Below are positions 4,280 through 8,170 of a stretch of 64,000 bases of DNA, piece by piece. This stretch comes from an uncultured Methylopila sp. (lineage in GTDB: Bacteria > Pseudomonadota > Alphaproteobacteria > Rhizobiales > Methylopilaceae). The notes below the pieces were generated by a model. That model worked only from the letters and a program-made list of their open reading frames with translations. It was not told the origin of the DNA and ran no database searches. The translations under genes were made by a program, and so were the position numbers. Location: contig CABHPB010000067.1 in the NCBI GenBank assembly GCA_902168115.1, positions 124,001-188,000 of the forward strand. The letters run 5' to 3'. Position 1 is the first letter of the stretch, and each line of letters opens with the position of its first letter.

Positions 4280-4996
4280 TCACAGCAGCACGGCGAAGCC
4301 GTCGGCCTTCACCTTGTCGAGCTCCCGCCGGCAGCGATCGTAGGACGGATCGTGGCGCGTGATGCGGCCGGCCGGTCCGGGCTCGCCGCGCTTTAGTGGG
4401 ATCATCGCGATCGCGGTCGCGACCGGCGCGAGCTGCGAGCCGCGGCCGGACTGAAGCGTCAGCAGCACGCCGTAGAGCGAGCCCTCGATCGTCGGGCGCG
4501 ACAGCACCACCAGCCGATGCTGCCCGTGGCGGTTGGTGACGAGGTAGATGTGGCCGGACTGGTGCGGGGCGGAGACCTCGCCGAACTGGGTGAAGGCGGC
4601 GTCGAGCCGCTCGCCTTCTCGAAAAACCATGCGCGAGCTGTCGTCCGACCACGAGATATCGGTGCGGTAGGCGTAGATCGCGGCGGGATCGCCGAAGGAG
4701 GGGCGCAGGGTGAGGTAGGCGCCCTCGATCCACGACATGCCTGGCCGCGAGTAGGAGCCGAGCTCCGGCGGCGCGAAGCCCGCGGCCGCCGGCGAGCGCG
4801 CGGTCGTGTCCGGCGCGACCCCGCGCAGCTTCCGGCCTAGCGCCTCCTCCAGCCGGACGGTCGTCGCGAGCGTGAAGGGCCGGCTGCCGGCCAGCGCCTT
4901 CTCGAGCGTCGAGATCGAAATCCGGGCGAGGTCGGCCAGCGCCTGCCGTGACATCCGCCGACGGGCGAGCTCCTCGCGCACGGCGTCGGCGATCAT
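4280..4996 (-). CDS. XRE-type helix-turn-helix regulator with unknown C-terminal domain
   Basis: Probable DNA-binding regulator of 238 aa. The N-terminus (residues 1-50) has a Cro/CI-like helix-turn-helix: REELARRRMSRQALADLARIS followed by a second helix ending near KALAGSRPFTL. Residues 85-238 form an unrecognised, probably ligand-binding or folding domain with several beta-prone stretches. The frame is open to an ATG at 5182, which would add 62 residues of low-complexity sequence; the ATG at 4996 is preferred because it begins right at the HTH helix. The gene diverges from the sortase-target gene, so it could regulate that pair, but no operator was identified. Confidence 0.75.
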   Translation of the reverse strand: MIADAVREELARRRMSRQALADLARISISTLEKALAGSRPFTLATTVRLEEALGRKLRGVAPDTTARSPAAAGFAPPELGSYSRPGMSWIEGAYLTLRPSFGDPAAIYAYRTDISWSDDSSRMVFREGERLDAAFTQFGEVSAPHQSGHIYLVTNRHGQHRLVVLSRPTIEGSLYGVLLTLQSGRGSQLAPVATAIAMIPLKRGEPGPAGRITRHDPSYDRCRRELDKVKADGFAVLL

Positions 4997-5240
4997 GCCG
5001 CTCTCGGCGCCGCCCAGATCTTTCTCGGACGCCCCGACGTCCTCGCCGTTCCCAGCCGTTCCGGACGCCACCGCCGCTCCCCGCACCAGCCCGTACAATT
5101 CCTCACATAACGGCGGAAACGCGTGAGGGGCAAGGCGGGGCGCGCCCGAAGGAGGCTGAACCAGACCATACCCTCGCGACACGAAGGAGCGGATCCATGA
5201 GGTCGGGATGACGCCGCCTCATCATCGGGAGACCGCCGAA

Positions 5241-7556
5241 ATGTCATATGCCCTGATCGACCTGCCGCCGCTCGGCGGCGACATCCCGGAGGCGCCCGCC
5301 CCGGGCGGCTTCCGCCGCTTCCTGCTCAATCTCGCCCTGCTGAGCCTCGCCTTCGTGGCGAGCGTCGGCGGGTTGATCGTCTCGACCGTCGCCGCGAGCG
5401 CCGAGACCGCCGCGCGCACGCTCGCTTTCGTCACGCCTGGCGACATGAAATCCGGCTCGCTGCTCTTCAAGGGGTCCGAGCCCGGCAAGTATGTCGAGGC
5501 GCCCCGCGTCAAGGCCGACTACGACGTCACCGTCTCCGGCCCGACCATCCGCACCCGCGTCACCCAGGCCTTCACCAACCCGACCGACGGCTGGGTCGAG
5601 GGCGTCTACGTCTATCCGCTGCCCGAAAAGGGCGCGGTCGACGCGATGAAGCTCATCGTTGGGGACCGGGTGATCGTCGCCGACGTCAAGGAGCGGCAGG
5701 AGGCCAAGCGCGTCTACGAGGAGGCCAAGGCCGACGGCAAGACCGCGGCGCTGGTCGAGCAGGAGCGGCCGAACCTCTTCACCAACTCGGTCGCGAACAT
5801 CGGCCCGGGTGAGACCATCGTCGTCCAGATGGAGTATCAGGCGCCCGCGACGCAGGTCGAGCAGCGCATGTCGCTCAGGATCCCGCTGGTGGTCGCGCCG
5901 CGCTACATGCCGACCCCGGTCCTCCAGACGGTCTCGATGGACGAGCGCGGCTGGGGCGTGACGCAGGCCGGCGCGAACGACCCGGTCCCGGACCGCGACC
6001 GCATCTCGCCGCCCGTCAACGACCCGCGCAAGGTCGCGCCGACCAACCCGGTGACCATCACCGTGCGGCTCAACGCCGGCTTCGCGCTGGGCGAGGTCGC
6101 GAGCTCCACGCATCGACTGAAGGAGCAGGTCCTCTCTGACGACAGCCGCATCGTCGCGCTCGACGAGGCGGACGTTCCGGCCGACCGCGACTTCGAGCTG
6201 AGCTGGACCCCGAAGTCCGGCCCGACCCCGTCCGTCGGCCTCTTCAGGGAGCGCATCGGGGCTGAGGACTACGTGCTCGGCTACGTCACCCCGCCGGCCG
6301 TCGAGCCGCAGGCCGAGAAGCGGCCGCGCGAGGCGATCTTCGTTATCGACAATTCGGGCTCGATGTCCGGCCCCTCGATGGCTCAGGCCAAGGCCAGCCT
6401 GATCTTCGCGCTCGACCGCCTCACTCCGGCCGACCGCTTCGACGTCATCCGCTTCGACGACACGATGGAGCGGCTGTTCATGGACACGGTCGACGCCACG
6501 CCCGAGAACGTCGCCAGGGCCAAGGACTTCGTCTCGCGACTCACCGCCGACGGCGGCACCGAGATGCTGCCGCCGCTGAAAGCGGCCCTGTTCGACCCGC
6601 GCCCCTCCGAGCAGCGTTACCTCCGTCAGATCGTGTTCCTGACCGACGGCGCGATCGGCGACGAGCAGCGCATGTTCGAGGCGATCGGCGCCAATCGCGG
6701 CCGCTCGCGGCTGTTCATGGTCGGCATCGGCTCGGCTCCGAACAGCTACCTGATGACCCGCGCCGCCGAGCTCGGCCGCGGCACCTTCACCCACATCGGC
6801 GGGACAGAGGAGGTCGACGCCCGCATGCGCGAGCTGTTCGCCAAGCTCGAGAGCCCGGTCGTCACGGGCCTGTCGGCGAAGTTCGAGCAGGGCGTGGCCG
6901 ACATGACGCCGAAGATCCTGCCGGACCTCTATCGCGGCGAGCCGCTGGTGTTCGCGGCGAAGATCGCCGAGGCGAAGGGCGCGCTCACGCTCTCCGGAAT
7001 GATCGGCGACACGCCGTGGTCGGCGAAGCTCGACCTCGCCAAGGCGGCGCCGGGCGCGGGCGTCTCCAAGCTCTGGGCGCGGCGCAAGATCGACGACGTC
7101 GAGGTCGCGCTCACCCTGCGCGAAACCAAGCCCGAGGCCGCGGACGCCGCGATCCTCAAGCTCGCCCTCGCCCACCAGCTGACGACGCGCCTCACCAGCC
7201 TCGTCGCGGTCGACCAGACGCCGCGCCGTCCCGCCGGCGCGAAGCTCACCCGCGCCGACGTGCCGCTGAACCTGCCGGCCGGCTGGGACTTCGACAAGGT
7301 GTTCGGCGAGCAGCCGGGCTCCGAGCTCGCCCCGCCGGAGATGCGCAAGGCGGAGGCCGAGGGACTGATGAAGGTCGCCTATCAGGGCGTCGCGCAGGCC
7401 AAGGCCCCCGCACAGGCGACCCGCGCGGTCCAGGCGCAGGCCCCGCTGCCGCAGACGGCGACCGACGCGGAGCTGAAGACGCTCCTCGGCTTCGCGCTGA
7501 TCCTGCTGTCGCTCGGCTTGCTGATCGTCAATCCGGCGCGCCGGAGGACGGCGTGA
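5241..7556 (+). CDS. VIT/vWA surface protein, class GN sortase target (LPQTA sorting signal)
   Basis: Matches the proteobacterial sortase target family (TIGR03788 type). With the 5241 start it is 771 aa: a hydrophobic N-terminal anchor or signal (about residues 22-47), a VIT domain (about 80-200), a von Willebrand A domain with the metal-binding MIDAS core DNSGSMSG (D370, S372, S374), a beta-rich region, and a cell-wall-type sorting tail: LPQTA (736-740), a hydrophobic helix (about 749-766) and a terminal RRR. The ATG at 5241 has GGGAGA 8 nt upstream; an in-frame ATG at 5208 lacks a well-spaced site. The cognate sortase overlaps the stop codon. The protein is likely exported and attached or processed at the envelope; what it binds is unknown. 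Confidence 0.9.
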   Translation: MSYALIDLPPLGGDIPEAPAPGGFRRFLLNLALLSLAFVASVGGLIVSTVAASAETAARTLAFVTPGDMKSGSLLFKGSEPGKYVEAPRVKADYDVTVSGPTIRTRVTQAFTNPTDGWVEGVYVYPLPEKGAVDAMKLIVGDRVIVADVKERQEAKRVYEEAKADGKTAALVEQERPNLFTNSVANIGPGETIVVQMEYQAPATQVEQRMSLRIPLVVAPRYMPTPVLQTVSMDERGWGVTQAGANDPVPDRDRISPPVNDPRKVAPTNPVTITVRLNAGFALGEVASSTHRLKEQVLSDDSRIVALDEADVPADRDFELSWTPKSGPTPSVGLFRERIGAEDYVLGYVTPPAVEPQAEKRPREAIFVIDNSGSMSGPSMAQAKASLIFALDRLTPADRFDVIRFDDTMERLFMDTVDATPENVARAKDFVSRLTADGGTEMLPPLKAALFDPRPSEQRYLRQIVFLTDGAIGDEQRMFEAIGANRGRSRLFMVGIGSAPNSYLMTRAAELGRGTFTHIGGTEEVDARMRELFAKLESPVVTGLSAKFEQGVADMTPKILPDLYRGEPLVFAAKIAEAKGALTLSGMIGDTPWSAKLDLAKAAPGAGVSKLWARRKIDDVEVALTLRETKPEAADAAILKLALAHQLTTRLTSLVAVDQTPRRPAGAKLTRADVPLNLPAGWDFDKVFGEQPGSELAPPEMRKAEAEGLMKVAYQGVAQAKAPAQATRAVQAQAPLPQTATDAELKTLLGFALILLSLGLLIVNPARRRTA

Positions 7557-8170
7557 GCGCCGTCGCCGCGATCAAACAGGAGGCCGGCGTCCGCGCCGGC
7601 TTCCGACTCTCAGGCCGCGCGGTCATCGCCGCCCTGCTCGCCCTCGCCGGCTTCGTCCTCGTCGGACAGGGCCTCTACATCCACGCCAAGGCGGCGCTGG
7701 CGCAAGTTCTGCTGGAGCGCGCCTTCGACGACAGCCTCGCCACGGGCAAGCCCGTCAAGGCATGGGGCTGGGCCGACACCTGGCCCGTCGCGCGGATCGA
7801 GGTCCCGCGCCTCAAGCAGAGCGCGATCGCCCTTCGCGGCGCGAGCGGCGAGGCGCTCGCCTTCGGGCCCGGCCATCTCGACGGCACGCCGGAGGCCGGC
7901 GAGCGCGGCACGGCGATCTACGCCGCCCATCGCGACACCCACTTCGCCTTCCTCAAGGACGTGACGCCCGGCGACGAGATCGTCGTGCGCCGCGCGGACG
8001 GATCCGTCGCGCGCTTCCGCATCGAAGGGACCCGCGTCGTCCGCTGGGACGCCTCCGGCCTCGACCCGCACGCGGCCGGCCGCAACCTCGCGCTTGTCAC
8101 CTGCTGGCCCTTCGACGCCACGACCCGCGGCCCGCTCCGCTACGTGGTCGAGGCCAGAGCGATCGACTGA
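7553..8170 (+). CDS. Class GN sortase (Gram-negative transpeptidase)
   Basis: Cysteine transpeptidase of the class GN sortase family (TIGR03784 type), 205 aa, membrane-anchored by one N-terminal helix (about residues 23-45). The sortase triad is visible: H126 in the AAHRDTHF segment, C184 in LVTCWPF and a candidate catalytic arginine at R196 in PLRYVVEA. The GTG start at 7553 overlaps the target gene's TGA (GTGA) and is preceded by GGAGG, so the two are one coupled unit. It should cut the LPQTA signal of its neighbour and join it to an amine acceptor, but the acceptor in Gram-negatives is not known. This dedicated one-sortase, one-substrate arrangement is typical of the family. Confidence 0.93.

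Follow-up and report, generated by a model that had tools for sequence, protein, structure and literature searches.

An uncultured Methylopila sp. carries a gene pair that encodes a VIT-vWA protein with a C-terminal sorting signal and, directly downstream, a class GN sortase. The pair lies in a window of 64,000 nucleotides, meaning the whole stretch of DNA that was analysed (contig CABHPB010000067.1, positions 124,001 to 188,000). The tail, the neighbouring position of the two genes and their matching distribution across two genome samples support the view that the VIT-vWA protein (hereafter the target) is dedicated to this sortase. The pair is real, intact-looking and dedicated, but it is already catalogued, a status absent from the original prediction made from this DNA. 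We propose a one-enzyme, one-substrate system in which the sortase would cut the target between T739 and A740 and transfer it to meso-diaminopimelate, giving a wall-tethered product in the periplasm; we assign this reading as a whole a probability of roughly 0.55.

The second gene of the pair was examined by homologue search, where a place outside the sortase superfamily would by the terms of the original prediction have refuted it, and falls inside that superfamily by both sequence and fold. Its product matches TIGR03784 with 205.8 bits against a cut-off of 158.25 (E 3.5e-61, positions 2-174 of 174), which makes it a member of class GN, and the Pfam Sortase model is also over cut-off. An AlphaFold2 (AF2) model, built from an alignment of the window protein with 50 of 79 named sortases, has a mean predicted local distance difference test score (pLDDT) of 93. 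Foldseek matched this model to 127 PDB chains at E<=1e-3; among the 50 matches listed all 50 are sortases, and the matches span classes A, C, D and E. The residues H126, C184 and R196 are invariant in all 115 sortases compared (112 different sequences; 36 from the order sample described below, the source genome included, and 79 from named loci). The GTG start of the sortase gene overlaps the TGA stop of the target gene by 4 bases. The claim of an adjoining, overlapping sortase with H126, C184 and a candidate R196 is borne out by coordinates and invariance alike. Sequence and AF2 model together suggest one N-terminal membrane helix and a barrel that faces the periplasm.

The first gene encodes a protein that matches the NCBIfam equivalog TIGR03788 with 784.3 bits against a cut-off of 551.65 (E 8e-236), and is thus a member of that family; both VIT and VWA_3 exceed their Pfam cut-offs. 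Its AF2 model, from an alignment of the window protein with 26 of 80 named targets, has a mean pLDDT of 76.7. The best fold match in Foldseek is human inter-alpha-inhibitor heavy chain 1 (6fpy; E 5.9e-35, 620 columns, 16% identity), while a sequence-profile search ranked the vault protein PARP4 highest, followed by heavy chains H4 and H1. The protein had been described as ending LPQTA-helix-RRR, and frame, coordinates and residues agree: LPQTA occupies residues 736-740, followed by a hydrophobic helix (H743-763 in the AF2 model) and RRRTA at the C-terminal end.

The source genome (4.10 Mb in 154 contigs, 98.4% complete, 3.7% contamination) contains a single TIGR03784 match and a single TIGR03788 match over cut-off, plus two weak partial matches to the latter. 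Further tails, which the original prediction had proposed to look for, were sought genome-wide with a DNA pattern for LP.TA[ST] that also admits F for L; tails of other wording fall outside this search. The pattern occurs in 29 places, against 39 for a backwards control pattern, and no second tail with a hydrophobic stretch and basic end was found among the 29, that of the window alone qualifying. A chance LPxTA string was rejected in view of the profile scores, the tail shared by 36 order targets and the single qualifying place in the genome. Several substrates in this genome were likewise rejected, within the limits of the pattern. At 98.4% completeness in 154 contigs, a second copy may have been missed. 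A single sortase and a single adjacent target, the sole example found in the genome, support a dedicated system.

Co-occurrence was assessed in 199 genomes of the order and 398 of the phylum, ten pair-bearing phylum genomes being shared with the order sample. In the order sample, sortase and target each exceed cut-off in 36 of 199 genomes, and these 36 genomes are identical; every pair is adjacent, on one strand and with the target first (36/36). In three more order genomes the sortase matches are sub-cut-off, and no target exceeds its cut-off. In the phylum sample the target is over cut-off in 37 of 398 genomes, and a sortase at E<=1e-3 is present in the same 37 (33 over cut-off, 4 below); at all 27 non-shared pairs the sortase adjoins the target on the same strand. 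One pair-bearing phylum genome has an additional sortase match at G365:C1:587676-588047, weaker (84.4 bits) and under the cut-off.

A set of named loci comprised the best 80 of 282 relatives found, and thus near kin. The sortase adjoins the target in 79 of these 80; at the exception (L185) the record ends 144 bases past the target match. Over the 115 loci with both sequences, target and sortase distances correlate with r 0.89, a value not corrected for shared ancestry. By title, all of the best 80 loci are Alphaproteobacteria or unplaced Rhizobiales-type records, save two doubtful labels. Named carriers include Bradyrhizobium, Rhizobium, Ensifer, Methylobacterium, Caulobacter, Labrys and Erythrobacter, and with genera such as Bradyrhizobium, Rhizobium and Caulobacter among them the family labels 'marine' and 'halotolerant' are too narrow. 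The pairs from Bacillus subtilis SK6B4 (L141) and Frankia sp. RB7 (L133) nest in the sortase tree with Ochrobactrum/Rhizobium and Bradyrhizobium, respectively; these records are likely to be mislabelled or contaminated deposits. No recurring third neighbour stood out in neighbour clustering, weak evidence as antisense shadow open reading frames (ORFs) blurred it.

The tail of VIT-vWA homologues differs where the sortase is missing. We compared the C-termini of 22 homologues that have no class GN sortase next to them (13 from the order, 9 from the phylum), 21 of them in genomes without any TIGR03784 match; a further homologue (G024), its gene cut by a contig end, was not counted. None of the 22 has a tail of LPxT[AS] type with a helix after it; four phylum tails read VP[SG]T, but immediately before PEP. 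Eleven of the 22 end PEP-CTERM-like, and ten of these have an exosortase match beside them in the same orientation. The gap between the two matches is about 0.9 kb at most, and a further small gene may lie in it. The eleventh (G128) stands at a contig start, with a 5′ ORF that runs off the contig and has no Pfam match. Another six end GlyGly-CTERM-like. Five of these are from the order, and their genomes are exactly the 5 of 199 with a rhombosortase over cut-off, located 330-380 bases 3′ of the target match; the rhombosortase search covered the order genomes, the sixth (G372) being from the phylum sample. On the 3′ side of one homologue (G210) lies a gene of the rhomboid family (Pfam Rhomboid, 40.4 bits), and its genome also has an exosortase elsewhere. 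In three others a membrane tail is missing, and the last (G009) looks decayed.

Both tail labels rest on motif and neighbour, since the PEP-CTERM model TIGR02595 scored 13.5-15.5 bits (cut-off 16) in three of six PEP-like proteins scanned and was unlisted in the other three, and no GlyGly-CTERM model match was listed for the three GlyGly-CTERM-like proteins scanned. The presence of an exosortase alone is not exclusive to PEP-like VIT-vWA homologues: among 13 order genomes with an exosortase, six have a PEP-like homologue adjoining it, G024 has its contig-cut homologue adjoining, one (G057) has a sortase pair with the exosortase elsewhere, and five have none of these among the homologues read. 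Two further cases were observed. The decayed-looking homologue (L238, G009:C324, 3774-6098) has no LPxT tail and has lost its metal-ion-dependent adhesion site (MIDAS; DQLKM for DxSGS), and beside it (6172-6765) is an ORF of 198 aa that has a single hydrophobic stretch and in which neither similarity to sortases nor any Pfam match was detected; possibly the pair decayed together, a single case in a genome that is 84% complete. The phylum genome G334 carries, on the same contig, a sortase-paired VIT-vWA protein (L221/L241) and a second homologue without a membrane tail (L226, the one member of the 22 from a pair-bearing genome).

In the proposed mechanism, an N-terminal signal would direct export of the VIT-vWA protein, which a C-terminal helix and the RRR tail would then retain in the inner membrane. 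An N-terminal helix would anchor the sortase there too, and the sortase barrel would face the periplasm. C184, helped by H126 and R196, would cut LPQTA to give a thioacyl intermediate, with the bond between T739 and A740 predicted as the cut site by analogy with class D sortases. An amine would then take over the new C-terminus; the most likely one is that of the meso-diaminopimelate side chain, either in lipid II or in peptidoglycan, and the product would be a periplasmic, wall-tethered, inter-alpha-inhibitor-like protein. Peptidoglycan of the meso-diaminopimelate type is assumed for the host from general knowledge. The best PDB match of the sortase by profile is 2ln7 (E 1.1e-19), the Bacillus anthracis class D sortase (PMC4498605), for which LPNTA substrates are reported to be cut between T and A and joined to meso-diaminopimelate (PMC3297441).

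The location was approached through the type II secretin GspD, counted where it is over cut-off; diverged secretins below cut-off and other export routes lie outside this test. GspD was found in 27 of 199 order genomes: in 8 of the 36 with the pair, the source genome included, and in 19 of the 163 without. Among the order genomes of rhombosortase type (0/5) and PEP type (0/7) it was absent. With so few pair genomes positive, surface export by type II secretion was rejected as a general rule. A role in adhesion or surface assembly, hinted at in the original prediction, is unsupported by this test, and with the secretin in 8 of 36 a cell-surface location cannot be assumed. No type II route to the exterior is thus seen in most order carriers, a result in favour of a periplasmic product.

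Several observations weigh against wall attachment as set out here. In the Foldseek ranking, structures of classes E, A and C come before those of class D, with 2ln7 at rank 14, and the sortase scores below the cut-offs of both class D models (NF033746 / NF058671; 64.5 against 165 and 66.8 against 140 bits). It is thus outside class D as those models define it, the acceptor inferred from the nearest relative is correspondingly weak, and class D serves as a working analogy rather than as membership. In the system that includes the relatives with a GlyGly-CTERM-like tail, the member that has been studied is linked to glycerophosphoethanolamine, not peptidoglycan (PMC6219818). GspD is present in the source genome, where the protein may lie at the surface. 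The motif itself varies. The 36 order targets share the LPxT-helix-basic architecture, seven of them carrying G, S or A at position 4 and the other 29 T. Of the 80 named tails, 79 match the search expression, 75 with T at this position and 4 with G. By eye, 13 of the 27 further phylum tails begin with L and 14 do not, so that the rules for LPxTG signals are not exactly transferable.

The commonest order motifs are LPQTAT (15) and LPKTAT (7), the one remaining named tail (L146) reads LPQTGI, and YPQTAT, MPKTAT, FPQTAT and VPATAT occur among the further phylum tails. Mostly hydrophobic-P-x-T-A/S-T is a more fitting description of the tail than strict LPxTG. Methionine at sortase position 102 (L102 in the window) was found in 9 of 10 sortases whose targets have a residue other than threonine at motif position 4, compared with 3 of 105 others. 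This marks it as a candidate specificity residue, although the association ignores kinship and is suggestive only; a tree grouping test for the non-threonine label was weak, 61 of 500 shuffles being as low.

Attachment to a membrane lipid would use the same enzyme and cut, with an amine such as that of phosphatidylethanolamine as acceptor, and would swap the helix for a lipid anchor, as rhombosortase seems to do. We regard this as unlikely, though serious enough to be weighed. Its case comes from the same protein family carrying a GlyGly-CTERM-like tail beside an adjoining rhombosortase in 5 of 199 order genomes, together with the end group of a rhombosortase substrate: VesB of Vibrio cholerae is reported to end in a glycerophosphoethanolamine-containing group, possibly phosphatidylethanolamine, and to need type II secretion (PMC6219818). 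Interchangeable tails suggest one shared end product. The dependence of VesB on type II secretion sits poorly, however, with a secretin found in so few sortase-type genomes and in none of the rhombosortase-type or PEP-type order genomes. We also know of no sortase with a lipid acceptor. Slightly less likely still is a mainly proteolytic role, in which water would resolve the intermediate and the VIT-vWA protein would be released in soluble form, periplasmic or secreted. A single substrate, no visible partner and a type II secretin in the source genome would all be compatible with it, and if release were all that is needed, the use of three unrelated enzymes on one kind of tail would make sense. 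Sortases, however, characteristically transfer to amines, and a signal peptide without any tail yields the same soluble product with no dedicated enzyme, as the three sortase-less homologues without a membrane tail illustrate.

A role like that of pilin sortases, in which the enzyme would link VIT-vWA molecules to each other to build an adhesive surface structure, is very improbable. vWA domains occur in sortase-built pilus tips, and the weak partial Foldseek matches include the pilus adhesin SpaC (6m48). Against such a fibre stand the failure to find a second sortase, a second over-cut-off target or a second LP.TA[ST] tail in the source genome, and an AF2 sortase model that has no C-terminal helix of the kind that class C sortases possess. 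The lack of a recurring third neighbour points the same way, weakly, given the blurred clustering. Beyond these alternatives to wall attachment, VIT-vWA proteins may form a class in which a covalent bond has to replace the C-terminal helix, made in bacteria by the sortase, exosortase or rhombosortase available and taking the form of a glycosaminoglycan ester in animals, a generalization that we consider quite unlikely. Were it true, and the bacterial end products alike, the class GN sortase would be, to our knowledge, the first whose acceptor is a lipid amine and not peptidoglycan or a protein. As sortase, exosortase and rhombosortase versions of the same substrate exist, the acceptor question is testable by comparing the three mature C-termini.

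Features of the pair are collected in Table 1. The start of the target gene is uncertain: position 5241 is used throughout, and an in-frame start lies at 5208.

Table 1. Coordinates of the sortase pair and of the domains and signals of the target protein (positions in the window, or residues of the protein).
Feature	Position	Strand	Remarks
VIT-vWA sortase target protein (TIGR03788)	5241..7556	+	771 aa; open reading frame, profile and fold matches
N-terminal export helix of VIT-vWA protein	about residues 22-50		
VIT domain	residues 92-199		Pfam
vWA domain	residues 366-515		Pfam VWA_3; MIDAS-like DNSGS at 370, TDG at 468
C-terminal sorting signal LPQTA TDAELK - hydrophobic helix - RRRTA	7446..7553	+	residues 736-771, from sequence
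Class GN sortase (TIGR03784)	7553..8170	+	205 aa; GTG start; sortase barrel; H126 / C184 / R196

Upstream of the target gene, an AAGGAG read by eye in the region 5184-5211 stands 7 bases ahead of a four-codon ORF (5197-5211, ATG..TGA) whose stop overlaps the alternative start at 5208, possibly a coupled leader. A divergent gene at 4280-5182 on the minus strand has a sub-threshold HTH_31 match (21.2 bits against 27) and is a possible regulator of the pair.

Within the genus, the pair is present in three of the seven genomes of the order sample (the source genome, G142 and G170). In all six congeners, TsaD-GpsA was found without the pair in the 1.5 kb examined on each side; the pair lies 1.7 Mb from TsaD in G142 and on a different contig in G170. 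The three genus targets form one clade (95/90) in a tree of a hand-picked 46 of the 115 targets from which the last 70 columns were omitted. This pattern fits loss and relocation, or transfer within the genus.

The interest of the pair lies in the acceptor to which a sortase joins proteins when the cell wall is thin and an outer membrane is present. The acceptor had been noted as unknown for this class, which a 2023 paper bears out in calling the role of the class GN sortase unknown (PMC10581121). A full-text literature search, with most subscription journals beyond its reach, found no experimental study of a class GN sortase among the titles listed; an Ensifer gene annotated 'marine proteobacterial sortase target protein' is listed in a table of changed genes in a transcriptome paper (PMC6637203). 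New here are a larger count that includes the misses, the exosortases and rhombosortases beside proteobacterial homologues, the looser motif and the type II secretion test. Found in genera such as Bradyrhizobium and Methylobacterium, the family is a convenient test bed for the acceptor question.

The three-way exchange of sortase, exosortase and rhombosortase was published in 2011 by Haft & Varghese (PMC3237569), and the pair is thus a catalogued family. Compared with TIGR03784 and TIGR03788 as described there, the architecture, the adjacency, the one target found per genome and the LPxT-helix-basic tail are the same, and no essential difference was found beyond carriers broader than the 'marine' of the family names. 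The B. anthracis class D sortase (BaSrtC, 2ln7) with BasI and BasH (LPNTA) is similar in having A after T in the motif and few substrates, and one substrate gene, basI, lies in the sortase operon (PMC3297441), an arrangement comparable to the pair. It differs in its spore-forming Gram-positive host, in its substrates and in the class D scores that the Methylopila enzyme does not reach. The rhombosortase/GlyGly-CTERM and exosortase/PEP-CTERM VIT-vWA systems share a homologous substrate, a tripartite tail and an adjoining cognate enzyme, but their enzymes are unrelated (a rhomboid serine protease and a multi-helix exosortase) and their tail motifs are different; an exosortase-linked family with a VIT domain is also found in NCBIfam (TIGR04477, XrtN system). 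Human inter-alpha-inhibitor heavy chain 1 is likewise a VIT-vWA protein with a C-terminal covalent link, a link that is only predicted for the bacterial target. In the human heavy chain the C-terminus is reported to be joined by an ester to the N-acetylgalactosamine of chondroitin sulfate (PMC7170535), a eukaryotic case with another acceptor and another chemistry at a distance of 16% identity. The shared C-terminal attachment may reflect descent of a shared habit or coincidence.

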